From contig OX485809.1 in the NCBI GenBank assembly GCA_950295325.1, positions 12,834,001-12,898,000 of the forward strand: a DNA stretch of 64,000 nt, written 5' to 3'. This document shows, piece by piece, positions 5,321 to 59,991 of this stretch (its first letter is position 1; every line of letters begins with the position of its first letter). The notes beneath the pieces are model-generated. The model had not been told where the DNA came from, made no database searches, and worked only from the letters and a program-made list of their open reading frames with translations. This DNA comes from Polytrichum commune. Lineage: Eukaryota > Streptophyta > Polytrichopsida > Polytrichales > Polytrichaceae. Made by a program: the position numbers and the translations under genes.

Positions 5321-5326
5321 ATAACA

Positions 5327-5625
5327 ATGATGGCCAATGACAATTATTTGACTGTCATTGGTTTGCCGGAATTTGCGTCAAGCCTATTTCTTGAAGGCAA
5401 CCTAATGCAAATTTTGGCAAATCATGAAAACCTTATTCACATTCTATCATGTAGGATTCCGTGTAGAATTTTAATCCATGAAATTTTCCTTAGACCTCTA
5501 GGCCTTCACCTTCCAGCGTGAAGTGAACATGGATGGTCTCTGCATTTTTGACCAATGAAAACTTTTAGATTGCAATGGTCATGGGCCTTCAACCTTGTGT
5601 GCGAAGAGGCCATGCGTTAAGTTGT
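5327..5625 (+). repeat. Decayed family B MITE copy
   Basis: Segments around 5445-5520 and 5540-5620 (gtgaagtgaacatgg..., gcaatggtcatgggccttca) align in order with the right half of the family B copies at 18645 and 52605. Both ends are worn, so limits are approximate. Confidence 0.45.
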
Positions 5626-5889
5626 ATGGGGACATGGTTATTTACAACTTATTGGTAAAGATCGCAAGTGTCTAGTTGTCATGAATCTCTAAAAAATAAT
5701 ATCAGTAAGTTGGCAATAAATGTGCTAGCTACATATCTTATATATTGTTCTCTCTCTTTAATATGTCATATTTGGTTGCGCAAGAAAGTGTTGTCTTCTA
5801 CATAATATGATATTTTGGCCTCAAATGTCCAACTATTGAGGTTTTCCAAGAATGAGGGCCTATTTTATTGTAAAATTCTATGAAAACAC

Positions 5890-6458
5890 GTGTATGGAAG
5901 AACAATTTTAGTAAAGAAGTATATTCACAACATCACACAAAATGGAGCCAAAATAAGTATAGTCCCACGATGGTGTCTTCACCATATTACGCAATATGAA
6001 AGTACAAACTCATTTCCTTTTGATGATGTTTGTCGATGTTGGAAATCGACATCTTGTTCAATTTATCCACTTAAAAAAGTTACATGTTCATCATATCTAC
6101 AACTGAAAACTCCGAAGAAAATTCCACTGGAAAATATGATAGTAATTAGGCATATTCACATACTTGACGAAGCTTGACTATTGGTGTTGGTTGGTCATCT
6201 ACATTAATCCCTTCCATTGACTCTTCATTTAAATCTATATCCAAATCGACCTCTCTATCCCATGCCAAATCCACCAAACTCATCCATGTTGTACTATGCA
6301 TTGACAACTTCCTTCATTGCACATATTCTTCAATAGGCATTTCTTCACTTTCAAGATTCAAAGATGAAATGAGACTTGCTAGTTCATTCAATGTTCTTCA
6401 TTCCTCATTTCTCACATTCATCATCCATGGCAAAATTGGCATTGTAATATGTAAGTAA
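5890..6458. other. Region with longer open frames, unrecognised
   Basis: Two adjacent + frames (5890-6177 and 6174-6458, 95 and 94 codons) are open but have no domain I recognise. The minus strand of 6170-6310 also gives a compact acidic stretch containing DLAWDREVDLDIDLNEES followed by DDQPTPIVKLRQ, which looks more protein-like than the + frames. This may be a fossil of a transposase or other gene on the minus strand. No function is assigned. Confidence 0.25.
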
Positions 6459-17600: not shown

Positions 17601-20600
17601 GCTTGGTGCTGAAACATCATAAGTTTGAAGTCCAGTTGAAGAATACTCGAAATGGTTTGAAATTGCTGAGGGTTTCACAATCTGCTGTAAGTTTGCGTCA
17701 AGCCCCAGGGGTGGTTAGTGTAAATCTGGCGGAGAATGCAAGTGCTCAAAAGGCAAGGGAGGTGAGGGAGGTAAGGGAGACAGAGAAGCTCATCAAGAAG
17801 GGTGCCACGGAGAAGCTTGAATTCGATGACATCCAGGACCTCATTGTGTCACCTCCCAGTGCTTCTCCCAACAAGGCTCCCACACCAACGCGTGAATCTC
17901 CAACCCTTCTGGAGCGAGAGGCCCTTGCTGTGGAGGGATCGGCTTACTTTTCTCGAAGGGAGCGGAATGAAGCGATGTATGGTTTGTTGGATGTGTTGGA
18001 GCAGAAGGGTGTAACACCTGGATACGCATTTGAGTTTGTCCGCCATGCTGAAAATCTTATCGATGTACTAATTGCTGAAGCCAAGGAGATTCCTGGTGAG
18101 GAGGGTTTAGGATCCCTTGACCAAACTCTAAAGGGCATTGATGATGCACTTTTTGTGGATAAAGGCAGAACTGAACAGATGACGAAGACACAGAAACCTC
18201 GGAAACTGGAGGGACTAGATTTGAATAACCGGTTATTGGATACAGTCCGTAAGGCAAGAGGTTTGTACACTGAGCAGGAAAGAGGGCATTGGAAAGGCTC
18301 GCTGTCCTCGAGGGTTTCCCTGTGTGCTGAGCAACAAGGTCTTGCAAGGCTTGTTTTCTACTTTCAGATGATAGGGATTAAGGCTGTGGACATACCAAAG
18401 TTGCTGCCATATGTGGGCCGTCGAATTGACGTTGTGATGGCCAAGGTGGAATTTCTACGCAGCATATGTGTCAGGTATGGCTGAAAACTTGTTTGCAATT
18501 GTCTGAGCTTTGTTCAGGATGTGGTATTTAAAAAAAAATATCAATAGAGAAATTTTAGTTAATGGAAGCTGATAATTCACAGTCTTTTGCACGTTGACTA
18601 CCACCCAATGTCAAAGTTGATATGCATATTGAACATCCTTACCGAAGGACCACTTTACACTATGGGAAAGGGCCATGACCATGATATTGTGAGGGCCCTT
18701 GAAACTTATCCAAAGGTCGTACCATGGAAAATTGAGATTGAATTTTCTGTGGTCATGGGCCTTCAAATGACTGGACTCTTAATCGAATGCTTTTTGATTA
18801 CCATCCAATTTATGTGGGCCCTTCTACACAAAAAGTTTTAGTATATCAAGGATTGTGAGATTTTGGAGTTATGGTCTCCTGGTTTTGTTCTACACCAAAG
18901 GGCTTGACCCAAAATTCGGTAGACCATGAAACAGTATCCATTGCATTCCATGTAGAACACCATGTAGGTTTGTTCATCCAACTTCCTTGGTCTTGTAGGC
19001 CCTCAAGCTTTTGTGTACAGTGAAGTGGGACAGTCTTGGCATTTTTCCATCAATGAGAGACTTTACATTTCAATGTTCATGGGCCCTGAAGGTCCAGCGT
19101 TAATTGGCCCTTAGCATGTATGCATTTTCTGGGTTGCAATCTGTTGTCAGCTCCATTCCATCATTTTCACAGGATAGTTATATATAACTTCTAGACGAAC
19201 TGTACTTTCTACGTAGCGTCCATGCCTGTAATTTGTTGGGCTTTTCCCTCTGACTATGGAATGATTGAACTACACCACATTTTGAGTGCTAGCCGATGGT
19301 TCCATTCTATCGTACTTCAGCCAGAATTGTGAGTTAGAAAAAGATCATCACATCCGACACCTCTATTTGCCTTGGGGAGTATGGATGGCAGTTATGTGTG
19401 ACGGTAACTTATTTGGGCTGGAGTGCTCTTGAGGAGCAGTACTCTCATCACAATTTTCCGAAGGGGGTTGTAAATGTAATCATCCTAATAATATATGTAT
19501 ACAAGTACAAAGTTGTGTAATTATCATGATCTTAATTCAAATTCATGATGTTATTACATGTTATTTTTATATAGTAATTTTTCCTCCAGAAGTTTGTGAT
19601 GCTATCCCTTGTTGTGTGATGCAGTTGGCTGGATGCATGCTATCATTTGCATAGATTTGTCCCTTTATGTACAATGGCTCTATGCATTTGATTTAATGGA
19701 AGGTGCAAAGTTTGAGTCTAAGTGTTTGATGTTGCAGGTATGAGCACCTTCCAGGTATCCTTGCGGTTTGGCCGCAGCTACTATCGTATGAGTGCGATAG
19801 CTTAGCACTTGTGGCAGAGTATCTCACGTCCATCGGCATGACCCAAAAAGAGATTGCGATACTTGTTACAAAGTACCCCAAAATTCTGGGTAGGGATGTC
19901 ATACAAGACTTGCACTCTACCATGACTCTGCTTGAAAATTTGGGAATATCAGTGAAGGATGCAAAGCAACTTGTCGTGAGGTACCCTACTTTGCTAACAG
20001 AAAATGCAGAGAAGAAGATTGGGCCTGTTGTGAAATACTTGGAACACATTGGCGTTAAAAAGAAGAACATCGGTGCGCTCCTTGTGCGGAGACCTGTTTT
20101 ACTTGACGCTGACGTGGAGAAGGATTTGGGCCCAATCGGTGATTACCTGAAGAGTATACATGCAAGTACAGATGATATAGATAAAATTGTGACATCCTTC
20201 CCTTGGTTGTTTTGCTACGACATTGAGCAGGATTTTCGGCCAACTGTCCTCCATCTGGAAAGTTTAGGTGCGTGGTAACTCCAGTTTTTATGGTCTTTTT
20301 TCTGGTTGCCAGTATGCTCTTCTAGTCACCAAATTTATCAATTGCTTAATTATCACTTTTACTTGCAGTGTTCTACACAGTAGAATGAACATGGATGAAC
20401 ATTCTATTTGATTTGAAAGTAGGACGGGTGCTGGAGTCTATGGGAACAATACAGTTATCCTTCAACTCAATGGGCTTTTGGGGGATGTTAGTTCCCTATG
20501 AGTATCTGCTGTACAAAATCAAAACTTTCTTTCCACTTGTAGTGCATGCTTGGAGGTAATGTTTCAATTCATTGAGGGCCAAACTTGTTTTCACACCCTC

Positions 20601-22033
20601 TTGGCATACCAAAACGAGTTTGACCGTCATTGAATAGATTTAGAACGTTCTTTGTTCAAACCTCCAGACTACCTTTGAGCATGCACAGGAAACTCACTAA
20701 ACATGGAAGGTGTTGTATGCAAAACGACCGATCCTCAACCAAAAGTCTTATTGAGTTTAAGGGTATCTCTAATGTTCTATCCCAACTTGCAAGTTTGATG
20801 ATGATGGAGGGATAGGTTTTCAAACTGATGCAAATCTTTGTTGTGTACTTATTACATCCCAGATTATTCAGGAAATCTGGTGGTAAATTTTTTTGCAGAC
20901 TTGGATATGAGCAGGATAGATGAAACAAGTGGTGTAATGTGACAGAACTTTATAAGCTTCGAGGACCATCTTTTACAAAATTTGAAGTTTGTGAAATTGC
21001 ATCTAATAGAAAGTGAACAGTTTGGCCAATTGAAGTGACTTGTGATTTATTCAGAGCTATTGTGTGCACTTGTGCAGAGGGGCATACTACTACAGTAGTA
21101 ATGGTGATTTTATTTCAATTTTTAAGAATACTGGTTATACTTTGATGTTGAATTATTCAGTCCACTACAAAGAATCTCTATGCAATTTTGAATCACCTTC
21201 CACAGATGTTTTCACATGTAAGATCTTATCACTTATTAGTTAATCGGATGACTGCAGGAGTGGAGCCTAGTTCAATGGGGAAGTTGTTTCGTCGGCACCC
21301 ACAATTATTGAAGAATCGACACAACTTTGAAATGAAGACTGAGTTCCTCCTTAATCTTGGCCTCGAGCAAAAAGATCTTGGGAAAGTCATATACAATGCT
21401 CCCCAGCTTTTGGGTCTCAGTGTCGAGGAAAACATGGTTCCAACTGTAAAATTTCTCAGTAGTTTGGGAATTGAAGGGCCAGCACTGCTCAAGGTTCTTA
21501 AAACGAAGCCAATGATTCTAGCATACAGTGTAGAGGCAAAGCTCCAGCCAAATGTAAAATTTCTAGAGAGTCTTCAAATTCAACCTGAAGACATTGGAAA
21601 GTTGGTGACAAGGCACCCACAATTGTTAACATTGAGCATAGAAAAAAATTTAGAGCCAACTGTAAGTTATTTTCTTGAGCTTGGTTTCACTAAAAAGGAT
21701 TTAGCTGATATGATTAAACGGCTACCATCCTTGCTAGGATTTAGTGTCAAAACTGTACTAGAACCTAAATATAGATACCTTGTCGACTCGATGAAGCGCT
21801 CTCGACAAGAGCTAGTGCAATTCCCACAATTTTTTAGTTACAGCCTTGCAAAGCGGTTAGTTCCGCGGCATAAGAGCCTACAGGATCTCTTTCCGGAACT
21901 CTCTTTGGGTAGTGTATATGGGTGTAGTGATGAGGTCTTCGAAAAGAAACGAGACCGGTGGCTGCAAGCACAGGAAAAGATGAAGAGTGCTGTTACACCC
22001 TCAAAGGGGAATAGAAAGAAAAAACCAAATTGA
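17558..22033 (+). CDS. mTERF-domain organelle protein (three exons)
   Basis: Exons 17558-18474, 19738-20267 and 21258-22033 join in frame across GT-AG introns of 1263 and 990 nt, giving 740 codons and a TGA stop. mTERF proteins bind nucleic acid in plastids or mitochondria and act in transcription termination, intron splicing or ribosome assembly. The N-terminal ~40 residues are rich in Arg/Lys and Ser with few acids, as in a transit peptide. Residues ~60-305 are unlike a classic repeat and end in an Arg-rich helix region. From about residue 306 come ten or eleven mTERF repeats of ~36 residues with the signature P-x-L-L followed by L-x-x-L-G, for example DIGKLVTRHPQLL and DLGKVIYNAPQLL; the second exon junction falls inside one (LESLG/VEPSS). 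The tail is basic (KGNRKKKPN). It is longer than most plant mTERFs. In-frame stop upstream at about 17516 fixes this ATG as first. Intron 1 carries a MITE. Confidence 0.93.
18645..19113 (+). mobile_element. Family B MITE in mTERF intron 1
   Basis: It begins aaggaccactttacactatg, matching the family B left end, and ends near taattggccctta. The interior (ggccatgaccatgatattgtgagggccct, ttccatgtagaacaccatgtagg, gaagtgggac) matches the copies at 24227 and 52605. Fully intronic and on the same strand as the gene. Confidence 0.75.
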
Positions 22034-39062: not shown

Positions 39063-42000
39063 GTGGGCCATGATGTATTTTGTTAAATTGTGCAAAAGCA
39101 CCAAACAAGGAACTCTGAATTTACTGCTAATTATGTAGAGTGACTTACAACCATTGAAGGTAGTGTAGACTTTTTTTTGTGACGTATATATACATTTGCA
39201 TATGTATAGTATAGATCCTCAAGTTAATTTTCCCAATATTGGTGGCGTTTTTGGTTTGACTTCAACAGAATGGGACAAAGCGACAAGTATAGGGAGGTAG
39301 ATGAGCCTCCTGTAGTTACTTCCACGAGGTTTTATATTGCCAAATTTGCAATAATTTCCCAAAACAAAACTTAGTTGATTAGCAACTACAATATGGATGT
39401 AATGCAATAAGAGTGAGATCAAGGTCACAAATTGTCGATTTATGACGAATATTCAAAGAGCATAGATGTAATCTTCTTGGTGGTTATATAGGTGTTGAGA
39501 GTGTTCACTATTGAGCATTGACTTTTGGGCTATCCCAACCAATGAGTTGTCATATGAAACCTTAAATTAACTTTAGAAGTATTTGTTGTAGGTGAATGTT
39601 GAGCCATTTTACACCCAAAAGTAGGTGTTCGAATAAGAAATGTCTCCCTTAGTACCTAGACTTTCATGGTAGGCACATAGTTGCAACGTGCTTTTTTTTT
39701 TAAAAGAATGAAAGACGTTAGAAAAATGATGTGAAATGTTTCAAAATACACAAGTTTCAAAGAAAAAACTAGAGTATGTTATAAGCTCTAGGATTATGAT
39801 CCATCACTTGTACAAAGCCCTAACAAGGCTAAAGCATGGTTTTTTGCGAGAATAAGCATGAGGGTCTTTATATTGTCAAATATAGGAGCAACACATGCAC
39901 AACCATAACGAAACACAAAACCCTAAATCTAGACTTTTGTTTCAAAACACCATTTGAACGAATGTTTATGTTCATTCCGAAACAAATAAAAGCATGTTTT
40001 ATTACAACTATGGTCAACCACTACACCATTTTCATTGTGACTTGTATTATTTGGAGATGTCAACTCAAAGAGAAAGGACATGAATGAGGGATGTTTCACC
40101 CTTGATCATAGCTGCATACTCAAATGTAAATCCGTAGTTGATTTACGGAGCATGGTTATTTAGGACAAGTATAATTGCCCTTTTGGCAGAGGTGATCCAT
40201 TGGGATACATCAAACCTTTTTAATGAAAAATCATCATCAAATTTAATTATTACCCCCCAAAAAAAGGCTTGGTGTGGCACACGTATGTAGGTTTGTGAAT
40301 GGGAGACAATCAATAACACAATATTAAACATTTTGCTCGACATCAGGCTTTCCATTAAGGTCGTGTATACACCACACCAATATAATTTTTTATTGGCATG
40401 TGCATGTAAAATATTCAAAAAATCAACAAAAACAAATTCCCCGTTACCCTGAGACGGCATGGTCTCCATGGACTAGCAACCGAAAAGTGTTAATTAATAG
40501 TGCAAAATATATGCATGGTATTGTCGATGTGATCCACACTATCAACTAACAAAAAGCAAAGGACAAATCTCCCTTTTCATTCCTACCACCCTACGTATTT
40601 CCTTCATCTTTGATCATTGCTGACAAGGGGGGGTTGTCCACAAGATGGACATCCCCCGGTTGCACAGCCATGGCCTCCCCGTTGTGCACTAGAGACACCA
40701 ATGTCCTCCACAACCACCCTCCATCCACATCTTTGTGCAAAACAATGACGAAGGTTACCTTTGGAAAATCCGATTTGCTCTAATGGAATAATATTCTTCA
40801 GGGGCTCAACATCTTCATGTTCTAGGATATGCCTAGCCGCCAAGATGCAATCGATTGGTGGTTAGTCACAAATGAAGTATTTCAAGTCACGTTTCCACTT
40901 GAGGTGGGGTTCGAGTTCCACCCAATTCATTTCTTTGATAGGTCTCTAGCAAGTTGAAGTGGGGATGAAATATTGTACAAGAATATGATGGGGACCTAGT
41001 GACCGCCAAGTTAGGTGGAGACTTCATGTCCTTCTTATAGTCTCCTTCTTATAATAGAGTGTTTATGAAAAATTTAATTTTATGATGTAGAGTTGGACTT
41101 CGTCACATATGATGACCTTGGAAACAACATTTAATAAAGGACAAAAAGTGTTTTATGAAGATCTTGTGTGAGCATCAAAATTATGTTGAATTAAAAGTTG
41201 CCCCGTTATCCACCCCTAGAAGTTCTTGAGACCTGTTAACCCTCCAAATTAACCCCTAAAAACCAAGAAGGATTTTTTTTCGTCTAGGCAATTACCTCTA
41301 TCGTCCATCCCAATATACATTTTTTTTGTTATAATCTTTTGAATTGGGACACATGAACAATTGAGTTTGTGCAAACAATCCTAATTTTAAAGATATGGCA
41401 CATGTACAGTCATATATGGCATTAGTGGTACAAAATCTCTTTATTGAGCTCCTAAATTGGGATAAATTCTTACATGATTTTGAGGGGATTTGGGCTTGGA
41501 CCTTTCAAGAGGTTAATTATCCGGGGAACTGAGATATTGGAGTTATAGACCCAAGTGGTGGGCCGGAATGTATGCTCTTACCAGATATTGGTGATCATTA
41601 CAAAAAAATTCATTTTATATTTATTTATAATAAATGATAAATAATAAATAAAGAGAGATATCACACTTGCTCTAGAGTAATATGCTCATTTCTACTCAAT
41701 TATAACAAAAGAAAAATCAACAACATGGTCAAAATTTGAAGGTATTTGATACTAAAGTTCATGCCATCCAATCCTATCAAAATTTGTTCGTGCCGTTTGA
41801 TTCAAGCTTGATTTTTGAGCTTGGTACATATACATTCATGACAAATTATTTCGAAATTCAAACTCAGCCTGATAAAAATTTAATAGTAAGTCCAAAAGAA
41901 AAACACACTTATTTCATCACACTTGAAGCCAAAAGTAGTGTCACAAGTAGTGGAAGTTATACTTCTTGGAGCACTTCATCGCGAATGTGGGTAGGACATC

Positions 42001-43463
42001 TTGTGTGAAGTATTGTAGTGATTGAATCTCAACCATCTTAAATCCGCAAACCATTTTGGCTCCAATTCCACTATCAACTCAAGTGTCACATCCGCCAATT
42101 CTTGCACAATCGGATTATCATATGACTACTCGAATGCCAACACACACACACATAAAGTAATTGTGAGTATTCTACATTTTGATATATTTCAAGGCTCCAA
42201 CCCAAATTTCAATGTATATGCTTATCAATCTCACATAACTACCTACACTCACACTACTTTTCACCCTTCAAGGAATTGGGGTTAGAGCTCACATCAAAGG
42301 TGTAATACAAACTATTATTCAAAAACTATGGTATACTTTGACATCGACATTGACATCTCCAAACGAAGAAAAAAAATGGATTGTTCATTACCCTATAGAT
42401 CTTATCCAGAACGGCATTAGAATTGATGTGTCGTGTCATGACTTGTCATGTAGCACCAAATGCCTTGAGCCGCTTCTCTAATTCTTACCCAGTAATTAGA
42501 AGATAATTGAAATGGATCAATGATGAATAATATGGGCTAGACCAAATCGGATGTCTATTGCAAAGAACAAACCAGAGTGACATTGGCACTAAGATGTTCG
42601 AACCTAGAACATATGCACACGCTTCTCTTTGAAAATACATAATTGGTGCAAGATGATTAGAATCCAAACAGAGCCCATAATCACTTTCGTTATAATTTAT
42701 GATGATCGTATGAACATCTTATGCATTATCAATGTGGAGATTCTCTTTCTTGATGAGGGATCATGTAGATTCCCCCCCCCCCCTGATTATATTGACTATT
42801 GAACTTGGAATGATTAATAAATTTTGAACACATAATCCAAAACTTGTTAAACACGTGTCTTTTTTATGTCCATTCTAAGATCCATACCTAAACACATACC
42901 ACTCAAATATAGTTGTCAATTAAGATAAGCCCCCCTCTCTCTCTCTCTCCCCCTTCATACAATACCAACTATTTACTATATCTATTTTGAGGTTGGATGA
43001 TGTGTGAACTAAAACCTGGTATATTCTGAATATACGCCCAATCACCTGAAAACATCATTGATATACAATGTATCAAATTAAGAGGTTTGAGTTCTACAAT
43101 CGTATAAAACGGAATCAAAACCAAAAATATATTATTACTATTATTATTATTAAAGTTGTTGTTGTTATTTATTTCACCTTTTTATCAAGCATGAAGACAT
43201 CTCTTCTTGTAGGCTCGTAGAGTAGGAAATTGTCCAGTGTATATAAGCACTGAGGATACAACAATAATTTGAGTAAGTTCAACAACATCTTATGAACTCA
43301 CTTAATTTGTACGATAGGTTGATGGATAGATATATAGATAAATAGATGAACCACATTCATGATATGTCTTAACTTTATTTACTTATCTTTTCATTTTAAC
43401 CAACTACAATTATTCACTTTTCATTCTCGTGTTTTCCATACTTATTGAACGGTCTTGGGTACG
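39063..43463. other. Mostly intergenic, no supported gene
   Basis: Contains a relic at about 41190-41290 with ttaacccctaaaa words like the element at 22225, the MITE-like relic at 42425-42560, a family A' relic (+) at about 42690-42930 with a C run at about 42772-42783 and a CT repeat near 42935-42950, and scattered AT-rich DNA. A minus frame at 40604-40843 (80 codons) starts plausibly (ARHILEHEDVEPLKNIIPLE) but has no recognised domain. Confidence 0.45.
41736..42285 (+). other. Two consecutive Ser/Thr/Asn-rich open frames, unrecognised
   Basis: Frames 41736-42008 (90 codons) and 42022-42285 (87 codons) have similar character: Ser/Thr-rich segments SSVTSSGSYTSWSTSSRMW and GSNSTINSSVTSANSCT. 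The first also has a Phe/Tyr-rich part resembling a beta-strand protein (FDSSLIFELGTYTFMTNYFE). They could be two pieces of one decayed gene separated by stops. No domain recognised. Confidence 0.25.
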
Positions 43464-43799: not shown

Positions 43800-46455
43800 T
43801 CTATGATCCACCCAATCATAGTGGGGGTATCCAAGTAAGCCATATATAGTTAACCAATAATGTGAACCTACGGGGTTGCCCTTAAGGGAGATAGGTGTTG
43901 GCCAACTTGTCTGCATCCGTTCAAGGTGTTCACCTTCAAAAAGAGGCAACAATCGCTAGGGGCTCACTAATTCTCGTAATGCCCGTTTCAAGATTGCACA
44001 TAGATTTGGACCAGCTCAAAAATGAAGCAACACCATTATTCACGTCGATGGCAACATCATAGTCATCTTTCTTTTTCACTTTCCATATAAAAAATGCTTA
44101 CAAACACTATTCAACAGTTGGTGTTGGTCTTGAGTCCATGTATCCATAGGGAATTCAAACCCATGGGGATGCTTGTAGGATACCTTTTGCATCCATATTC
44201 ATGTTGAACTTGGATTATGAATGAGAGGGTTCTAACGGTCTAACCCCTAACTTCCCACGCCCAATTTTCCTCAAATCTGCCCAGAAAATAGGACCTCAAT
44301 TTCATTGACAGTTGCTGAAGAGCTTTTTTTTTTTTTGACATGTCCAATTGTATAGATTTTTCCAGTTTAGAGGTCCAAATTTTAAATGTTGAAGTTTTGT
44401 TATGTAGGAGATTATAATAGTGTGTCAATAGTGGTCTAGAGGGGCAACAATTTAGGATTTAAATTGGGGTTGGTTTTTTTATCAAACCTCCACTCAAATC
44501 ATCTCCAAATGACAAAATGTTACCCCTGTTCAAAAAAGGAACAATACACCTACTCAAATCAGCTCACAAACCTTGAAACCATTATTTTATGATTTTTTAG
44601 GAAGCTTTGCAATTTGAGCGGCGGTGCCACAACTGTGCACCTTTCACAGGGGTTTACACCCACCAACACATCTCCAACTAATTTTTATCAAGTAACATTG
44701 TTAATATTGTATAATGTCCAAACTACCAATTTCACATTTCTTGATCAAATATGAGATATACAATAAAATAGATATAGCATCGCGTGATTCCATATAGTAA
44801 GTGACACTAAATAGTATATTTAGTGTAGTTAATATGATGTTTAGTTTTATTCAGACCCGAATCCCACGGCTAATGGTGATATTAACATAGACTAACTTGG
44901 GTAATCGTGTCTTTGTCCCCAATGCATGCTTCAAGCAAGCTGCACATCCTAGCCACCTGCACACTCATTTGTTGGTTCATCAAACATGTTAGTCCACAAA
45001 ATAAATAGAACAATAATGTTAGTTTACATGGTGCCTTTTGTGGAGAGCTTTCTCATACTTGTATGATGGGGATATTGCCTCGATTAGGGAGCGAGGGGGA
45101 ATACCGTATACAAGCATACATTCATCCAACCAATATAAAAACATGACCTCATGTAGGTTTGTTGTTGATTCACCTCAAATGATTTCGTCTAAGAGTAATG
45201 CGGGATCTTCAAAGCTAATTTTGGTGTCGAATCTACTTCTTTTTTTAAATCTCTGGGCTGCATACTATTTCAAAGCTTTGTGTTGGAGGAATGAGAGGTA
45301 CGCTCATATACAATGATTCCCTCTCTCTCCCTTAATTTTGAGGTAGACATTTTTTGACTATTGTGATCAGGACATCAATGGATTGTTCATTATTCCTTCT
45401 CAAGGTCCAATTTGGCATCTCTTTGTCTCAATTCAAGTTCCACATCATCTTTTAAGAGGTTCTAACCGATCATGGGCCAATCACTTGATGACATCTGACA
45501 TTTAAGTAAGAAGCCATCAATTTACGCCTATATGGCCTACGTGTAGGGTATTAGGGCGTGTATACATTAGTTATCACTGACCACGACCATCACTTTCTAA
45601 ACTCTTTCACAAGGTTGACAAGTGATTGTCCCACTTCACTTTACACAAGGCCACCATAAATAAGAGTGACCATGTCCAAAAATAATAAGAAAGGAAGTGA
45701 TACGGAAGTGACATGGAATCCTACATGTCCTAAACTGAATAATGGTTGGTGGTCACACGAATTTTGCGGTGAGAAAATAAAAATAGTTTGTGTTAGTATA
45801 AAATGAAGATTACCATCTGAAGAGAAGGAAAACTATGTTTAGTGGATATGAATTTTTATAAAATATCTCAATTTAGCACAACCCTTTTTTTAATAACCTT
45901 CTATTTTATTTTTATTTTCATTAAGAACACTATATCCCAACCTAAGCATGCCTTACATTGTTGGGACTCGGGGGATTCATATAACCAAGTAATAACAACC
46001 CTTAATTTCTTGGAGCGTATTGTGGTTTCATTAGATCATCTAAAAAGTAAGCTTTATGAAGCTCAATTTTTATTGTACCTAAATGAAAAGTTATTGCTAA
46101 TGCTTATCAAATCACATCAATACAATAGCAATATTTAGTAAATTTCATGATATGTTTATAATCGATTTAGAATCATCAAACTTCAAGAAATTACAATAAA
46201 TATATGTAATAAGACTATAGTCCAAATTGTCAAGGTTATGTTAAGAATAAATATACACCTTGAGGTAAGAAAAAGAGTCCATATAAAATTGTCAATCTTC
46301 AATATTAAAAAAATGAAGTTTCTTTACATAGAAATGTATCAACAAAAGAAAATATTTGTTCATTCTTGAATTTAAATTTTTCTTGTGAACAACCATCTTT
46401 TTGTATTGGAGTGGGATCATTGTCATTGGCAAGAAAATTTCATGAGGAACACAAT
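43800..46455. other. Intergenic, no supported gene
   Basis: It may include the body of a 5S-headed element (to about 43985). A T run occurs at 44325-44336, a worn family B fragment (ccacttcactttacacaaggccacc) at about 45630-45655, and AT-rich DNA elsewhere. I looked here for the missing 3' exons of the KAP gene on the minus strand and found none. Confidence 0.45.
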
Positions 46456-48362: not shown

Positions 48363-51300
48363 CAAGCCAACATTCGAAATGGTGGGTGCTGTATTTTGGG
48401 AGCATATACCACCCACAAACATGATGACCTGCACAGATACAATGCAACCAACACTTAAAACTGCACTAATTCTTGTTGAGATGAATATTGTAATGGACAC
48501 GGAGTTTTGGTCAAAAAAATTATGAACACAAGTTTTGACCATGAAAGTTGGTGATGCTTGTTCACTCAAGTCCACTTTACACATGAGCTTTTAACTTGAA
48601 TTGAAGCTAAAATTTGAGACCAAAATGTGACAAAATGAAGTGGCACAATGTGTGACATAACTTTCCCACCAAACCTTGTCAAACCTGATCCAAGAAAACA
48701 TTCCTTCGAAATTGAGAAACCAATCTTCGAGCTTGGGTCCCATCTTGACTTCCAAAATAAAGTCCATTAACCCTTAAATGCTCATGCAACTCAAAATTGG
48801 TCGCCACCTAATATTTTGATGGGGTTTGCGACCCACTAGGTGGCAATCTACGTGGATGAAAGGTATCTACTGGTGTAGGGTGGTGCCCACTACCATGTGG
48901 CCAAAAATAACATACAAAAACCTCATACTCCAAGCACGTAGGATTTTTTGTTAGTTTGGAATTACGTTTTGGGAGGCAGTCCCATGAGCTGCCCTAATGT
49001 AAGAGCCAAATTTAAGAGGCAATATGATATGATGCCTAGTTTGAGTGGGTTTTTTCCTTTAGGATAAGGTGGCGGTTGTGCACAACTTGACCAAACGGAT
49101 TTGAAAGAAAAGAAAAGAAAAGAAGGGAATTTTATATATAATAATATAATACTATAATGCTACTTTTTTTAAAAGTAGACATGTTGCTTGCTCCATGAAA
49201 AGGGGGTAATCTCCCAAAATGACCTCATGTGGCCCTCCAACTTTGAGAGTGACAGACTTCATCTGAATTTGCTCCCAAAAACCCAATTCTTTGGGAGTAG
49301 CTCATTTGTCATCCACATAACATATTATGACAAAGTTGTCAGCTATCAAAAATTTGTGGCACGACCAGAGTGATCATGAAACGGAAAAATTTCATAGTTT
49401 TCTTTAGCTACCCCCCGGATGAAGGCTATGTTCATATGGCATCTAACTTCGCAAATATGGTCTGATTGACTTCAAATTTTCACAACATGAACATATGATA
49501 ATCTAGTTCAGATCTGTACAGTTGGATTTCAAGAAAAAATAGTTTATTCTGCTACATGGAAAATGTTTTCAACACTAATGCTGAAAATGCCCGAAAATGA
49601 AATTCGAAGGCTTGAGCGTTTAGGGGTTCAAGGTTGTTTTGGACCCCAAGCTTCTTGGATCCAGACCTTACTATACACCCACCATACCATTACTTAGATC
49701 ACTCCAAGTGCTATCTTTCCAAATCAATCACTATGAACTGGTGAAGATCATGCGTCTTAGAGTTGGCTTATGACACTCCGGTACATTGGACCATCATGTA
49801 GTCGGTAATGTGGCCCCAAATACTATGGCCTATTAAGCAGCTCAGTTTTCTTATTTTGGACCCTTAAATGTGATTGGTATGTGGTTCAGTGGGCATCAAA
49901 GAACAAACATCATAAAGACACGTGTTCAAAAGAGATTGGACTGCATCTTCAAATATTAATAACTACTCCGCACACAATAGTGAACATAATTGGGAGAACC
50001 TATATGTCCAGTTAAGAAATCAACAAACATGCACTCCTGATAACCATAACTAACTAAGGAGACGTCCAATTTTCAATCCGGTTTTTGCAAATTTGCTAAT
50101 GCAACACAAGTTTTGTTGTGTAAATTTGACTGGTAGAAATTGAAGAACATGAAAAACAAACCAAATAACACCCACATACCTTGTTACAAAGGTTGTGATG
50201 GCAGCAGTTGGATGGTACATGTAGACTACGACCATACCATACTACGTGCGAGACAATTATACTAAGGAATGGCCCGATTGGTTCAATGGCAGGTCGCCAT
50301 TCTTATTGCGCATGCCCCTCCCATATACAATGCTTAGAACCTTGGATATGGATGGAGGAGGATCCATAGTTAATTTCTGTAATGCAAATATCATATTATT
50401 CCCAAGTTCTTTTCCATGGTCCGACTTCATGGTCCAACTTTTGATCAAATCGATTTACAAAGCCTTTGGGCCCCTCACTAGGTGTAAAGTAAATGTGGAC
50501 CAAGAGGAATGACCATGCATCAAAAAATGAATGTGCTGATTTTTTTGATATATGTCCAAAAAAGGCAATTTTTGAAAAAAAAAAAAAAAAAACAAGTTTG
50601 ACCATTCTCTTGTCTTTTCTTGTCTTCATCCTCTCTTCCCCAAAAAAATCATCGGAATATTTATTATAGCAATATTTCTTTGTCATGGGGCCCTTGCCTT
50701 TTTCTATCAGAGCATTTCTTTTGTCTTTCCCACCGCAAAAGCCATTGGACAATGTCAGTGGATAGTGTAGGCCTTAAAACATGTCTTTCGGGGACATCGA
50801 ACTCCATGGTCACTCTGACATTTTGTCCTTGGTGTAAACCGAAGTGGTCCCGGTACGAGTTCAATAGCCAATCATAGGTTCTACAGGGCCTTGGGACAAC
50901 TTCATGGTCCATGGTGTAAACAACCCCTTAATAATGTAAAGTAAGCAAGTAATTAATTAGGTTCCACCTCAAGAATGAGATCGTCCTCCAAAATGCCTGC
51001 CTGCAAGCGGGCTGCCATGAACTGCAGCACCTTCCTTTGTTCGAGGATCACGTCAAAGCTCCCTGCCATGCTCGAGAGGTTTGTCAAGGTGCCCATCACC
51101 TCCACCTGCCACATGTCACGCTCTCATTGGTCACTTGACATGATGTGGCACTTAAGAAGAAAAAAAACTAAAGAATTTATTTTATTTTTTAAAAAGGAGA
51201 CAATATGACACAGATGGTGGAAGTTAGAGAGGAAAATTTTCCCGTAAGAGTAACTAGCTAGGCTTGCAGAAAGAAAGACACTGGCAGTTGTAGTGTAAGG

Positions 51301-54300
51301 TGAATGCACACCTATCGCAAACTGTGACCTATAATGAAATTTATGTATAGATACATATCCAGGTTTGTAATGTTATGTACCTGAAACAAAATATTATAGG
51401 TCATGTATGTCTCTCACTCCAAGAATTCAAGAGATATTCATTTCGATTTCAGCAGTAGCTAGTTCAACTCTCATGTTCTTTATTTGGAGCTGTTAATGTG
51501 TTTATGTCGCTTGTTGTATCATCTGACCTCTACATATGTACCAAAGTATCCACAATACGTGCCCTCGCTTTACATTTGTAACCCACTTTTAAACATACTC
51601 TTGTCAGGTGAATTTTTATGTAGCACACATGTTCATGGAAGGCAAAACGTGTATAACCAATTTAAAAGCAAGATTGTCTTTCATGAAAAACCTCTCCTGT
51701 AAATTTCATCTCCATAAAGAACGAGTTTTGTGAAAAGTACAATGTATTTGTGTTGCAGTCAACTAGAGGAAAGAAAAGACAAAAATTGCTTATTTCTTTC
51801 AAATTCTTTCAACATAATCGTGGCGGAAAAGCTATATCCACACTAGAACACCAGTTAGCGTATTAACAAGTTCTAATTGTCGTGTAATTCCCATCCTTCA
51901 CAATATGCTCACTTATGTAACCTTCAATTTAAGTCTTCACATCACTACAAATAATGTATTGATATTTTAATTTAGACCATTTTCCCATAGATAGATGGAT
52001 GGATAGTAATAAAAAGCACCTCTAGTTGTCAAAATACATGAATGAGAGCCTCTTCGCCCACAGGCTACTAGTGTCCCATTTCAAAGGTGGGCATGTTGTT
52101 TAGATATAAATATGCATTTTAACTTAGAATGCTGACAAGAACTCAAACTAACTTGCAAGGCGAGGTTTGTCTCAGAATCCATCAATAGCTTCACCAGTGC
52201 CGGCAACGCACTACATAAATCAAGCAACCATGTCCGTGAATAAAAACCCACTTTATTGATCTATTATTGATCACATTTATCATCAACGTATGCAGTGATT
52301 GCCCAAGGCTCAAGCTGTCTCCTCTCATAAATGGAGCAGCCAAACCATGTACAATGCAAATCCTTGAAACATTATTAAGACTACTTATGCTTGAGGCATA
52401 GGACAACCCACCCGGCCATTAAACCAAGTAGTGATGGATCGAGGATGGGAATCTAAATGCGGGTGGAGTAGAATCCAAAAAACGTCCAACTTCACATACT
52501 TTCAATTAAAAGCACATTATTTCGGGAACAGATGAACGCATTTGTAGGGCCCAACCCCCTACTAGATGAGGTGCCTACCCAGAAGCCCACAAACCACTTA
52601 TTTAGGGCCATTTTACACTATGACCAAGAGCTGTGACCATGAAATTTAGAGCTCATGAAACTCATTCAAAGGCCTTGCCATGGAAAATCGAAGATTTAAT
52701 TTTGCATGGTCATGAGCCTTCAAGTGTGGTGTAAAAACGTACACGACTAGGCTCTCAACTAAATGCCATTTCATTACAATCTTATTCATGTGGACCTATT
52801 CCATATGGCATCATAATAAATCAAGAACTTATGTGGCATTTTGTGGAACCACCCACCTCATGAGGTGGACGTGACCCAAAATCCGATAGACCATGAAACA
52901 TAGTCCATTTTATGCCATGTAGAACTCCATGTATGTTTTTCAGCCATTGAAACTTCCTTGGTCCTTTACGCCCTCAAACTCTAGTGTGAAGTTTCTTGGG
53001 AGGTCTCAGCATTTTCCACCGAGACAGATTTTAGAGTTCAATGATCACAGACCCTCTACCCCTAGTGTAAAGTGCCCTACTTACATGCACCTGGGACAAC
53101 TTGATCTTTTAAACCCAATTTCCTTATTAATTTCCGAATATATCATTCTAAAATCACATGCTTACAATAACATTTGAAGCTTTGCACTCTCAAGCTGGCT
53201 TATGTTCCGGATGACCTGAATTCAAGCACGTATGAATACCGATGTCATCTTTTTCCCGTCACCTCGTATTCTTGCTGCATAAGAAAGTTTTGGAATCCAA
53301 TTCAATAAGTTACTCATGCATCAAACAGCTAAGCTTAGGCAAGTCTCCTATTGATCTTGAAATATTGGCAGAATGCTTAAACAGGTTGTACCAGAGGAAA
53401 TTCTCAAAGTGTTATTAATTTCTAACCTTGAAGAGTAGAGGGTCCTGGAAATTGATAGCCTGAGCTAAAAGCTGCTCCATAGCCCAAGGCTTGCACAATA
53501 GCTGTTCCGTGCATGGAGAACAAGTGAATAAAGATAACATTCAAGTTGTCATATCACGACATTCAGCTCAAGCTCAAGGCATCCTCATCAGTGATCACTT
53601 TCCAGTCATTAATAATCCATACGCATTGATACACTCACAAGCAAGCATATATGACACCTCAAGTATATATCATCACTGGTAGGTTGAGACAGAACACCTT
53701 ACAAGTTGCAACCCCACAATAAATTTGAAAAGGAAAAGGAAAATATTAATACTTGGAACTCCGTGTCTTACAACTTGAGGAATTGCACAAACATCACTCC
53801 ACATCTCATAAAAGAGGTGCAAGGAATCTACTGTAGTGCTATCCAGACTATTACTATTAAATGACGTGTCTGCTGATTGCTTGACACCAATGATGTGCAG
53901 TTATCATCTCTCATAACACGGCCACCATTATGAACCCACAACATTGAACACTTCTCATTACTTTCAGCTGGTCGGCGTAAACCCTCTGTTAAGGTTCATG
54001 GGCGTACAAATGGGGAGATCCAACCACTAGTTACAGATGAGCTGGTTGAGTTTGAGAAATAACCAGTTCAAGTTCAAGACTTTAGACAAATCGCCGATTA
54101 GTTTAAAGGAATCTTTGGAATATATCTTAAATTGATAAAGAACACCCAAAGATATCAACATGTAACCAGTTGGACTTGAAAACACTTGAATCTTAACCAA
54201 TTTTGTTCAAAATCTCCCCGGACATTGATGTGGGTCTTATGTGATCACTCTACTTATTCAGACACATGTATTTGAGTGGTTATGGCAAGACTTACTGTCA

Positions 54301-57300
54301 AGAATGGCCACCGAAAAGACATGAGTTACTATGAGATTGGACCAAAATGTAGAAGCCATTCTACATTTGATTGTTAACACAAATGGGTAGACCTATGTGA
54401 TCACTCCAAGAGGAAGAGTATCTTCACTTTGACCTCCTTTGACTTCTGCAACTAAACTCCAATTCTGAAAATTGAAATGACAATTTGCAATTGCTTCCCA
54501 CTTGAGACGATTCCCAATTCGACTCAACAGTCGAAATAGTTTGTGGAGTTGTAAGTGCCCACATTAAGGCCACATACCTCAGTTGATCCCTTTAAAACAC
54601 TAACACCTTACTTGCTCCATAATAATAGAAATAGAACGTCCAGCAATAGAATCTTCAGTGGATGTGGTTGAGGGAGGACTTCACCTCAGAGTTAAAAGGC
54701 ACATGAGTTAGATTGATTGTTAAAGCTGTCAACTCCTGCGTGGTGAGGTTCATTGGCTTTGCTAGAATCATCTGGACAAAAGACAAACCATCCATCTGTA
54801 AGTTAAATATCATCGCAGTTTCAACTATTTCAACAAATTAATGACACACAGAATTTTCGAGCCCTTTCCAGAAGACTGCCATTGTTGTCCACTTGGATTA
54901 CTATCTTCAGTTCAGTACACCATATAATCCTATTATTGTGGGTTACCATTTGGGATTTCCATGTTGCTATGACCTTTTATTGAGATTATCACTTTTTATT
55001 CAGATGAGACTGCTAACTAGTATGCACGTCAAGGAACATGCCATAAGTTACTTGGTCAAAATAATATTCTTGATAAATATTTACAGCAATGTGCAATCCA
55101 TATGGTACCCCACAATACAGGACCAATCAGTGTAGCTTCAGTATGAACACAAGGCAAGCAACCACCTCATCAAGCAAAGACATGGATATTTTCATTTCTC
55201 CATGATGAGCTTGTATTATTCAATGCTTGAATCTGACAATGCATTCAGTTTTCTGGGAAGTTGGAACTGCTGCTTCTCAACTTTCTTCGCACGTGATGAA
55301 GAATCATGCAGACCAGGAGGCAGGATTTGGTTCTCCATTTACTTCAACTCTAGTCAGTCTAGTGGCTAGGGAGTTAAATAGTAGGACCTGAAAGAGCATA
55401 GCAACAACTTCTGAGTCCGCATACTTGATGAGCCCAAATGAGTCTTTAGAAATATTGTACAACAGCCCGTACACCTGAATATCAAGAAGAGAGGAAGGGT
55501 TATCAGTTCTACTAAGCTTTCTTAATAACTTCTCCTTCACAACACCAGGTCCCACACAGGTGAGTGATCTGTCACAGTTTTCCCAGTGATCGCACCCTCA
55601 CCGGACTCTGAGAAGATCTGTCTAAGCATTCCACAGCTGTAATAAGATCTCTGGTCTTCACATTCTTCGTTTTAGTACAGGGTTAGTATTATAACAAGTG
55701 CTTATGGAGCTTCAGAACTTGTAGGATTTTTCTTATTGCTGAGTAGTTTAGCTGGTGACATTGAGATTACATGCTTATAGCTAAGTCAATATTGAATACA
55801 TGCCAACGAAGTGGAACTGAAGCTGTTACAATGTCATTTGACAAGATATTTGAATTATAAAATACCTCACTTGACAGAATACAGATAAAGCACAGGAAGG
55901 ATACCACACCAAATGCTCAAATTTGTTCTTGTGCACAAGGGATACAAGCACAGGTATAATGTCACACCGCACCTGCCATCAATATCCCCGCACCAATACA
56001 AGCACAGGTACAATGTCAATCTCAAGGAATTAGGAATTTCAAGATGAGGATAATGCTCCACTATAGACCAGATTTCATAAAGTCATGTAAGTAAACACAT
56101 TGAGAAGGTATTTATGACTTAAGTGGGTGTATTATTGATTTGAGTGCAAAATACCATGTCACTCCGAAGGCTTAGGTCAAACGAAAGGTTCCAAAGTAGC
56201 CTCAGAGCACCAAATAACAAAGACTGCAATCCAGCAATCTGTGGATTATAATCAAGAATCTCATGCAATACAAACTATGCTTTTCTAACTTTAGTTCCAA
56301 TTTAAACTATTTTCATAAACCATCCAGGATGAGTATTCCAGGGCACACTTAAATTTCTTTCTGGGCATACAATTGTTTTCATATGAGCTGATTTATTGCA
56401 ATCTCCTACCCTGAAAATGGGTGGACTTATAGATTTGGTGATCCCTCTTTGGAAGGATCAGGTAGGCCAAACTGTCAGTTCATAGAAGTTCAGACACGTG
56501 GATGTAGAGCATTTGATTTCATAACCAAAGAAAATATCAATACCTCCTGTTGACAGGGAAAAACGGCTGATAGTCGAGAAATGATGTCACACTCTTTCAT
56601 GGCATCCGTATTCTCTTTGAATATGCTTAATTTCTTCAAGAAGGACATTGTTCTGTTAATCCCAACAAATTGATTGCATGACCTCTCTTTGAACTTCAAG
56701 ATTTACTGGCCATAAGCAGCTCTAATTATTTCAAAAACTTCTTAACAGAAAAATGGGAACTGGTCAAGTACTGTGAAATCAGATCAAAAAGAGATTTTAA
56801 CAATATTGAACTATGAGATCAGTCTCAAATCCTGTGTGGACAATCTGTGCACCACTGCAAGCCTTCTTCAAACAAAGTTGGTCATTCTAGGAAGGTCACT
56901 AAATTTGAGATCATTTTTATGTTTTGCAAAGGCCAACAATGGTACCACATAGAGAAGTAGAATCTTCATGAGGTTTAAAAATCAAAGAAGTTTAGGATTC
57001 CAGTCAGCAAATCAGATATGGGACTCACATGGTAAGCAAGGCAACATTTTTCCAGCTCAATAGCTTGCACAATGTGTCCTGTTCCAAATGCAGACCAGGA
57101 ATCCTTCTTGTCAGAACAAACGAAATATCTCCAAAAAGTGTCAGTATTATGAAACTGAGCAGCAGCAATGAGTTCTATCTCCTATCAAGCTTAACATCAT
57201 CACAATGTACTGCCAGCTTCTCAAAACATATCACAGCATTGTCTGTCTTAAAGAGAGGAATAAATAGAGAGGAAAAGTAAAACACCAGAACATTCAAAGT

Positions 57301-59991
57301 CCACACGTTGGCTTGTCCTGCTTCAACTAATTATCATTGCTGAGTGTGAGGAACACTGTAACATTCATATCCAGTGTTCCTCAGCATAACACTGTGATTA
57401 CAGGATAAAACTATCGTATGCTGTAATTTGCATACTGTAAGTAGGGAGAACAAACGCTTTGGAAAACAGTATTAGAGAAACACCTTAGCTTACTGTTCTA
57501 TTTTGCTCCAATTCAACTATTTGAGATCGTTTTGAGTGGATTGCGGTTCAGTTTGGACTGCCGTGTGCACTTCGACTTCTATAAGTATCAATCAGAAACT
57601 GTCAGGTTTTATCTACACCATGAAAGGATAGGCAAACTTGCCACAACTCCCAGTGACTGCACCAGGCCATGTTGAGAAAATTGAGGATGTTGATAAGGAA
57701 AGCAAAAAGGAATTCGTAATAAAACAGGAGGTTCGCTGAAAAACCCTATGGAAAAGAAGAGGTACCACAAGATTGCACTTCATCATGCGTTTCTCCACGC
57801 TTACATCTTCAGCCATATTGAGCAGCAAACTAAGAGCTATGTACAGAAATCTCTCCTGCAATATTTAATCAACATTGCATGGATGCATGTTGTCTCAAGG
57901 GACATGTCTACAATAGCAATATATAAATTGGAAGAGCCCCAAATCATGTGACTCAAGTAGATTTGAAAGAGTTGAAAAAGTTGAAAAACATTGTTGTCTC
58001 GTCCTGCTTGTACAAATTAGACAAGCACCTTTTACTAAAGCAAATTTCAGGAAATCTGTTCACTTACTTGCTGGCCATTGTGAAGGACGCCCCCCAAGTC
58101 CGGGATGCTGGAAGTCTCCTTGAATGAACCTAGCCTTGATTTTCGAGCTCCTCTCTGTGGGCACCTATGGTTACATGAATCTCAAAAAAAAAGCCCAACA
58201 TTGCAGAATGCTGGTACTAAGCGGTTAACCCATTATGCAGGGAAAAGCAATGACAAAGGTTTTTTTGCACTAATTGCACTTCCAAGATAAGACCTGATGA
58301 ATGCACCCACAAGAAATGTTATCAATAGTCCTGTGACATCTTCAATCGGCAGGGAACAGGATCCTGTTTTGATGGACCAGGTAACTTCAAAACGTTCAGA
58401 CATGAGAATTCTTAATTTCCTTGCTTTGTTCTTTCTCATGACAATGCAGTGTGGAATTCTACTATATTAAAAAAAACTTGCATGATCTTCAACGTCCAAG
58501 ACCCCAGGCCCTTGCAATCAAAGAAGAACTCTTGCGTATGGCACAACTAGCAACAGAATTCTGCTGCTCATGCATGTCATGCTTGCTTTGCAGAAGAATC
58601 CACGAAGTGCAAAGGCATGAAGAGGACAACCATATAACCATTCCAAACACAACCTCCTACATGCAACATCTCATGGAATCGGAGTTTGGGAAATTGCCAT
58701 ACTTCACGTAGCTGCAACTCAGCGCATTGGATCTCTAGAGTCAGCAGGTTCAGAGTAGTCTTCCCAATCTTCTGTTCTAAGAGGAACTGCAGTCATACCA
58801 AATTAATCATCAAATGCCCGGGCCTCAGGACTTAGCATCGTGAACAAAGGAGACTGTAATAAGGTATGAATGACAGTAGACATACCGCATGGAAATTCCG
58901 GAACAACGACAACATGTAGAACGTTGAAACGATGTTTAACCGCAAATTGAAGCACTTCCTGCCTTCCTCGCGCAATACTCTCGCCAATGCACCCTACGCC
59001 TTGCCCAATGCCCAATGGCTTCTTTCGATGAGCCAGTCCAAAATTTAGCCATCACTTTCGGTGCTACATCCTTTGTGTCCTCGTAGACATGTCGGTTTCA
59101 GGATCAAAATCTTGATGCACATCACGATAGATGACCTTGCCTCGCATGCAACACCGTTCTTGCAATTCTGGGCTTTCGACTGAAACCCTAATTTTCAGAA
59201 ATGGCGAGTCACATATCATGGCAACGCCATCAATCGAGATGTTCACAGGATTGGTGATTCTTACATTGTTTTTTTTTTTTGTCAGATATAAGGATCACGT
59301 CAATCAACCTAGAAGACACATGTCAAGAGCAAGGTGTTCAACCGTAAATTGAAGCTCTTTCTCCCTTGCCCCATGCCCCAAGCTCATGGACACTTTGAAA
59401 TTAGCGACCACTCCCGGTGCTACATCCTTTGTGTGCTCGTGCGCATGTCAGTCCCGGTGCACATCATGAATGATGACCTTGCGTTACACGGAACACCGTC
59501 ATTGCATTCTGGAGGTTGGACTGAAACCCTAACTTTCAGAATTAGCGAGGTCCACACACAACCCGGCAGAGCCATCAATCGAGATGTTCACAGGAGTGGC
59601 GATTCACATACTAATTTGGTTTATCAATTGTCCTCGTAGACATGTCGGTCATGAAGCACATCACGAATGACGACCTTGCCTCACATGCAACACCGTTCTT
59701 GCATTCTGGAGGTCCGACTGAAACCCTAACTTTCAGAATTGACGAGGTCCACACACATCCGGCAAGCCATCAATCGAGATGTTCACAGGAGCGGCGATTC
59801 ACAAACTGTTTTTGATTGTCAAAGTGGAAGTTACAATCGCACAAACCAACCCCCGAAGAACGTGTCACTTGATCATATCACCAGCACAGCAAGGAGGTTG
59901 GGGATCTCACAAGAGCACTGCTGTGGCGGGAGAGTGCTTCCAGCCCTTCAGTGCTCCGAGACAATTTTTGAAACATAAATGTTGCACGGAT
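48363..59991 (-). CDS. KAP3-like (KIFAP3): Kinesin-associated protein KAP (kinesin-II accessory subunit), partial, 16 exons found
   Basis: Minus-strand exons in order: 59991-59911, 58993-58886, 58786-58661, 58154-58068, 57855-57766, 57078-57029, 56652-56544, 56223-56155, 55972-55910, 55474-55388, 54771-54685, 53501-53427, 53215-53166, 52210-52153, 51105-50968, 48428-48363. All introns are GT-AG and phases agree, giving 448 residues without a stop. KAP binds the tails of the two kinesin-II motors and links them to intraflagellar transport cargo; it is an armadillo-repeat protein. Family hallmarks appear in the known order: GALARVLREEGRK, NIVSTFYMLSLFRNFHA, ALSLLLNMAEDVSVEKRM, TMSFLKKLSIFKENTDAM, IISRLSAVFPCQQE, ALRLLWNLSFDLSLRSDM, VYGLLYNISKDS, AQAINFQDPLLFKVIRNISQ, EVMGTLTNLSS, ILEDDLILEVIMFVGGICS. 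Exon 58154-58068 (linker) is the least certain. The first ~140 and last ~200 residues expected from animal KAP3 were not found; the N-terminus may lie beyond 64000. Introns hold several MITEs. Confidence 0.9.
49818..50181 (-). mobile_element. Family A MITE in a KAP intron
   Basis: The right side reads ccaaataacacccacatacct ending at 50181, the reverse complement of the family A left end. The interior matches in reverse (cacaatagtgaacataattgggaga, gcaacacaagttttgttgtgtaaatttg). The left tip near 49818 is worn. It lies in the 2.5-kb intron between exons 51105-50968 and 48428-48363. Confidence 0.75.
50395..50935. repeat. Decayed family B-like repeats in a KAP intron
   Basis: Words such as ttccatggtccgacttcatggtcc, gggcccctcactaggtgtaaagtaaatg, ccttggtgtaaaccgaagtgg and catggtccatggtgtaaacaacccctta recall family B ends and interior. 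An A run lies at 50577-50592. Limits uncertain. Confidence 0.45.
51420..51580 (+). repeat. Dispersed repeat shared with 60275-60420
   Basis: gaattcaagagatattcatttcgatttc...tcaactctcatgttctttatttgga...aatgtgtttatgt...cctctacatatgt aligns with 60278-60400 in the same order. In the second place the block sits inside a family A MITE, so it is itself mobile or a transduced fragment. Confidence 0.55.
52605..53077 (+). mobile_element. Family B MITE in a KAP intron
   Basis: GGGCCATTTTACACTATGACC at the left and CCCCTAGTGTAAAGTGCCC at the right are inverted repeats. TTTA and TACT flanks give no perfect target duplication. At 473 bp this is the best-preserved uninterrupted copy. It sits between KAP exons 53215-53166 and 52210-52153. 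Confidence 0.85.
54221..54580 (-). mobile_element. Family A' MITE in a KAP intron
   Basis: The reverse-orientation end cattaaggccacatacct closes at 54580, and the other end, near gtgggtcttatgtgatcactct, starts at about 54221. The interior (gagattggaccaaaatgtagaagccattctac, aagagtatcttcactttga, gatgattcccaattcgac-like) is the reverse complement of the copy at 16088-16648. It lies between KAP exons 54771-54685 and 53501-53427. Confidence 0.75.
59085..59806. repeat. Three-unit tandem repeat with telo-box motifs in a KAP intron
   Basis: Units at about 59085-59270, 59435-59616 and 59633-59806 share gacatgtcggt...gcacatcacga.tgacgaccttgcctcacatgcaacaccgttcttgcattctgg, then the telo box aaaccctaa (59183, 59524, 59721), and ccatcaatcgagatgttcacagga..ggtgattc. 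The spacer before unit 2 (about 59325-59372) resembles the neighbouring KAP exon 58993-58886. On the minus strand it still reads F-N-L-R-L-N, so the duplicated block once included part of that exon. The array lies wholly in the intron 58994-59910. Confidence 0.8.

Follow-up and report, generated by a model that had tools for sequence, protein, structure and literature searches.

The locus described here raises the question of whether the small open frames scattered over positions 48363-59991 of the minus strand belong to a gene for the kinesin-II accessory subunit (KAP) and, if so, what such a gene means in a plant genome. Coordinates refer to the window, the whole stretch of 64,000 nucleotides that was analysed (C7:12834001-12898000 of a 407.8-Mb assembly, in which contigs C1 to C7 account for 406.1 Mb). 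We consider it about 80% probable that this interval is the middle of the sole KAP (KAP3/FLA3 family) gene detected, whose 20 small exons span 65211 to 41976 of the minus strand, that the host is a plant, most probably a moss, whose sperm are flagellate, and that the gene was the source of DNA for a pogo-like transposon family. Elsewhere in the window, two mTERF-type frames, which may form a single mTERF gene, were observed on the plus strand at 19811-20275 and 21188-22030 (5e-33 and 3.1e-57), along with a protein-kinase fragment on the minus strand at 842-1306 (6.4e-12).

The gene was rebuilt with a purpose-written protein-to-genome spliced aligner that has intron states and allows frameshifts at a penalty, with human KAP3 as the query against a 25-kb minus-strand segment. 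The spliced score on the gene strand was 603.5, compared with 200.5 to 247.2 in nine controls, which used the opposite strand (one run), two further regions of the window (three runs), shuffled proteins (four) or a reversed one. As this high control level indicates that tiny exons allow the aligner to fit noise, exons 11, 12, 15 and 16 were set by hand. The rebuilt model confirmed the existence of the 16 minus-strand exons of the original prediction, running from 59991 to 48363 (59991-59911 to 48428-48363) with sizes of 50 to 138 bp, GT-AG at all 15 joins and one frame throughout. The sequence motifs reported earlier were likewise present in the same order. The joined product is nearly as long as had been claimed, although it counts 441 aa and not 448 residues. 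Among the ORFs listed across the window, just one in the interval reaches at least 110 aa (118 aa), in agreement with the earlier statement that no single frame there is longer than about 120 codons.

The aligner placed exon 2 (59911-59991, 81 bp) and exon 3 (58886-58993, GALARVLRE...), which are followed by two exons with uncertain limits, exon 4 (58786-58661), whose donor end lies at either 58661 or 58703, and exon 5 (58154-58089), the least certain exon of the core, whose omission would keep the frame. Exon 6 (57766-57855) encodes IALSLLLNMAED and is missing from the transposon copies described below. Exon 7 (57029-57078), exon 9 (56155-56223, LRLLWNLSFD) and exon 10 (55910-55972) were also placed by the aligner, as were exon 13 (53427-53501, DPLLFK), exon 14 (53166-53215, VIRNIS) and exon 17 (48363-48428), the final exon of the interval. 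Exon 8 (56544-56652, SFLKKLSIFKEN) matches PF05804 without any join, and by itself, with 26.4 bits, exceeded the Pfam cut-off in an unguided profile search of the genome. The hand-set exons are exon 11 (55388-55474, LLYNISKDS; aligner end 55349), exon 12 (54685-54771; aligner start 54735), exon 15 (52153-52210) and exon 16 (50968-51105, MGTLTNL).

Searches with the joined protein against the Pfam KAP family and solved KAP3 bore out the assignment. Open pieces that were only roughly joined gave E-values of 1.2e-45 for Pfam KAP and 5.4e-35 for KAP3 of PDB entry 9w9h, and the 441-aa core matched PF05804 with 281.7 bits over profile positions 140-566 (1.5e-83; cut-off, 25.6 bits); the E-values are optimistic, since human KAP3 guided the choice of exons. 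Arm repeats alone (Arm, 40 bits) exceeded the cut-off among other Pfam families, and the only PDB sequences reached at an E-value of ≤0.001 were two KAPs, 9w9h_C (1.1e-81) and 9ikb_G (4.7e-36). Judged by these PDB matches, the predicted protein resembles KAP more than it does other armadillo proteins. The locus is a new KAP gene of an already known family.

The proposed KAP gene is thus found within 48363-59991, but the limits originally assigned to it did not hold, as the gene runs past this interval on either side. Exon 1 (65211-65131, minus strand), which lies outside the window, provides an ATG start with an in-frame stop upstream; together with exon 2, it matches the KAP profile at positions 118-165 (E-value, 3.1e-4), with 19.6 bits, which is below the cut-off of 25.6. 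At the other end, the aligner placed probable exons 18 (44897-44956) and 19 (43178-43249), followed by probable exon 20 (41976-42125), which is coding from 42125 to 41979 and then ends in TGA (tblastn E-value, 0.081 within 73.9 kb). The full model has 20 exons from 65211 to 41976, 19 of 19 introns with GT-AG ends and a 561-aa product running from ATG to TGA, whose identity to human KAP3 is 30.9% across 556 columns. With the three 3' exons and one 5' exon added, the Pfam KAP score rose from 281.7 to 322.9 bits and the match came to span positions 119-668 of the 708 in the profile (run from 65217, with the stop left out). The added terminal exons are weaker than the core: the spliced score was 59.0 for the 3' part, compared with 36.1 to 56.4 in 15 controls, and 60.5 for the 5' part, compared with 37.7 to 63.7 in 10 controls, one of which exceeds it. 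By themselves, the three 3' exons gave no Pfam match, and a genome-wide search with the C terminus of human KAP3 gave no match in the window, so that exon 20 was not recovered.

The N-terminal lobe of KAP (residues 1-126 of human KAP3) was not found by tblastn, spliced alignment or genome search, which divergent small exons can escape. In the 18.6 kb upstream, query residues 11-126 scored 47.1, compared with 40.2 to 64.1 in 11 controls. A 77-bp relative of exon 1 (size estimated by eye), which carries an ATG and a GT donor of its own, was observed at 64926-64850, about 0.3 kb downstream of exon 1, in a duplicated block of about 0.28 kb that is 68% identical and lies just outside the window (L014). 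As this relative is out of phase, it is probably a decayed duplicate. Three repeat blocks of about 200 bp, 74 to 84% alike, were also observed between exons 2 and 3 (59042-59822). No second full KAP copy was found genome-wide; the strong matches elsewhere were the five transposon copies and a further element, L015, and an additional PF05804 match at C6:13795699-13796103 scored 24.6 bits, below the cut-off.

KAP exons 3, 4, 7 and 8, together with introns, are present in five transposon copies of 2,445 to 2,456 bp (L009 and L012 on C5, L010 on C6, L011 on C2 and L013 on C1). The window segment with exons 3 and 4 and their flanks (58274-59271) is 98.5 to 99.0% identical to these copies and the segment with exons 7 and 8 and their introns (56340-57165) is 97.2 to 97.3% identical, while the 1.1 kb that separates the two segments is missing from all five. 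Each copy has 26-bp inverted ends, with TA at both flanks (5/5); in L011, these ends agree at 24 of 26 positions. Across 1,825 aligned columns, the majority sequence of the copies and the window disagree at 24, and individual copies carry 9 to 18 private changes, with a stop in an exon of one copy. Allowing up to three mismatches, the element ends occurred 52 times genome-wide and never in the window, compared with no occurrences of a reversed-pattern control.

Fourteen members of the family, a subset of the paired ends listed, were read, and 11 of them contain KAP DNA (the five copies, L015, L016 and L020 to L023), whereas L017, L018 and L019 contain none. The KAP part of L016 and L020 to L023 is an intron piece from within 56305-56535, and that of L015 (C1:19172700-19178500) extends into exon 8. 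In L015, we observed a pogo-like transposase frame that continues straight into KAP exon 8 (LSIFKENTDAMKE; 2240-2911, minus strand), the transposase being split in two frames. L017 (C3:19446950-19455030) encodes a 682-aa pogo-like transposase on its plus strand at 4239-6284 (DDE_1, 4.7e-19; HTH_psq, 2e-8) and has ends of the same kind as the five copies, which makes it a transposase-coding relative. A further piece present in the five copies is 98 to 100% identical to C5:39751236-39752040 (L024), a second host source, which is matched in two parts 558 bp apart on C5. Capture of this piece from a spliced transcript was considered and rejected; the 558-bp gap does not have GT-AG ends as aligned, and separate captures are therefore more likely.

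The KAP gene is, as far as these sequence comparisons indicate, the source of the DNA that was captured and spread by the pogo-like family. Gene-carrying Mariner elements (Pack-Mariner) are known from rice, according to excerpts of PMC8903248, and the elements described here resemble these Pack-TYPE elements in having terminal repeats, TA on both sides (5/5 here) and host gene pieces inside. The rice and maize sets were built with Stowaway ends. In contrast to the rice elements, those described here occur in a probable moss and have a relative with like ends that encodes a pogo-like DDE_1 transposase. Neither "pogo" nor "moss" occurs in the main text of PMC8903248 and PMC13317346, and none of the literature titles listed (the best 12 of 22 and the best 6 of 68) names gene capture by pogo elements or in bryophytes.

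Other explanations of the locus have to be weighed against this evidence. If it were a pseudogene or decaying gene, with KAP inherited and no longer made, this would fit the low identity to human KAP3 (only about 31%), the weak terminal exons, the out-of-phase 77-bp relative near exon 1 and the N-terminal lobe that was not found either in the 18.6 kb upstream or genome-wide. However, the chosen exons hold one frame across 19 of 19 GT-AG introns, amounting to 561 codons without a stop, and the main aligner run used no frameshift, though another run used one at 51150. Decay of the gene is, on balance, unlikely.

It is far less probable still that the locus encodes a different plant armadillo-repeat protein that merely resembles KAP. 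Armadillo proteins are common in plants and Pfam Arm also matches here (40 bits), but the KAP match of 281.7 to 322.9 bits is colinear over profile positions 119-668, and vacuolar protein 8 and beta-catenin chains miss an E-value of 0.001 with this protein yet reach it with human KAP3. The copy in the window might also be a member of the transposon family itself and not the donor gene, an even slighter prospect. KAP similarity extends far beyond the shared segments, the mobile copies have neither exons 2, 5 and 6 nor anything 3' of exon 8, and no terminal repeat (up to three mismatches) lies in the window, whereas both ends are present in five of five copies; what speaks for membership is the 1.8 kb that is 97 to 99% identical to the five mobile copies. 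The reading preferred here remains that of a KAP gene that donated DNA to the family.

Kinesin-2 motor genes, which the original prediction suggested looking for in the same genome, were represented by one locus (C5:38353728-38359357). Two genome searches, with human KIF3A (69 of 249 candidates scored) and then with the protein of the locus itself (69 of 160 scored) as queries, revealed no second kinesin-2 motor, although a divergent one could escape them. Among PDB sequences, the motor protein joined from this locus matched KIF3B (437 bits), KIF3C (402 bits), OSM-3 (389 and 365 bits) and another kinesin-2 (333 bits) above the best kinesin from outside kinesin-2 (281 bits, among the best 60 of 113 matches). 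Its coiled coil and tail matched the KIF3B chains of 9w9h and 9w9i at 6.2e-13 and 1.2e-11 and the KIF3A chains at 3.2e-10 and 6.2e-9, and also two chains of 9ikb; within these complexes, 9w9h_C is KAP3 and 9ikb_G is a KAP. A further stretch of the motor matched the tail end of KIF3B (E-value, 2.2e-8 within the 9-kb locus), while the equivalent region of the KIF3A tail had no match within the same 9 kb. The motor tail is thus more like that of KIF3B than that of KIF3A (L035, C5:38352001-38361000). The P-loop of the motor reads GQTASGKT, compared with GQTGTGKT in the KIF3A query.

The gene content of the genome fits the original inference that the organism makes motile sperm, as dynein heavy-chain matches at eight places accompany the kinesin-2 motor gene. 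The genome search yielded 13 dynein heavy-chain exon matches at these places, of which 12 exceeded the cut-off; to our knowledge, flowering plants do not have dynein heavy chains. A flowering plant, which the genome size of 408 Mb had initially suggested, was rejected as the host on account of these matches. IFT57 is only suggested by five weak colinear matches (C2:54067787-54074820; E-values of 0.016 to 0.66), since 7 of 14 control genomes give a signal at that loose threshold, none of them over the cut-off. IFT57 matches that did exceed the cut-off, at C2:59.30 Mb, fall in three overlapping frames, look like a coiled-coil repeat and were discounted. The claim that kinesin-II based transport is retained holds insofar as one kinesin-2 motor gene was found, whereas kinesin-II in the strict sense, in which KAP joins two distinct motors, is doubtful given that the searches yielded a single kinesin-2 locus.

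The plastid contig C8 (146.6 kb) carries rbcL, trnR-CCG and then an apparent accD (read by eye) in a row. The best three PDB sequences for plastid PsaB (394 residues searched) were 8htu, 6l35 and 7ksq (889 to 893 bits; the next, 865 bits), which we take to be from Physcomitrium patens. Taken as a whole, the host is a flagellate land plant and probably a moss.

Previous research has described a single kinesin-2 in Physcomitrella (excerpts of PMC3472504) and in Marsilea, where the partner of the motor was called unclear (excerpts of PMC4947347), and an absence of kinesin-2 from flowering plants (excerpts of PMC1434745). The genome analysed here resembles these accounts in that one kinesin-2 motor was found and differs from them in that a KAP gene is present as well. 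Likewise, the gene shares with KAP3/KIFAP3 of animals and FLA3 of Chlamydomonas (PF05804) the colinear armadillo region, at profile positions 119-668 (human KAP3 being the one compared), but the present gene has a short C terminus and no N-terminal lobe that could be found, and its genome shows one kinesin-2 motor locus and not two. No report of KAP in a moss was found in the literature listings and excerpts covered; one may nevertheless exist, and genome databases may well list such a gene.

KAP is accordingly a candidate partner of the single kinesin-2 motor, as far as sequence can suggest, and we infer antheridial expression, binding and a role in flagellum assembly. In such an arrangement, KAP would cap the motor tail and would help the motor to reach basal bodies and transport trains. 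In excerpts of PMC12527917, KAP3 contacts the KIF3A/KIF3B tails in three places, the third being between the tail end of KIF3B and the N terminus of KAP3. Because the motor here retains the KIF3B-type tail end while searches for the KAP lobe came up empty, this contact has changed or else the gene model lacks part of its 5' end. In Chlamydomonas, a FLA10 homodimer binds KAP and not IFT, FLA8 shows the opposite and homodimers are unstable in vivo (excerpts of PMC7652414). By analogy, this would count against one motor plus KAP, and the arrangement would differ from that of Chlamydomonas and hence be new. It is a tentative suggestion, and one that could easily prove wrong, that mosses use a simplified kinesin-2 in which one motor with a KIF3B-type tail acts as a homodimer with KAP, so that plant sperm flagella could be built without the pair of motors that is the rule in Chlamydomonas, worm and mammals. 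KAP would perhaps be trimmed of its N-terminal lobe in such a system, and the KAP copies in transposons could feed small RNAs back on the gene.

Overall, it appears that pieces of a flagellar gene, exons included, were passed to a pogo-like transposon family in what is probably a moss. The occurrence of KAP beside one detected kinesin-2 motor would turn the question of whether the motor acts alone or together with KAP into one that is testable in a laboratory moss.
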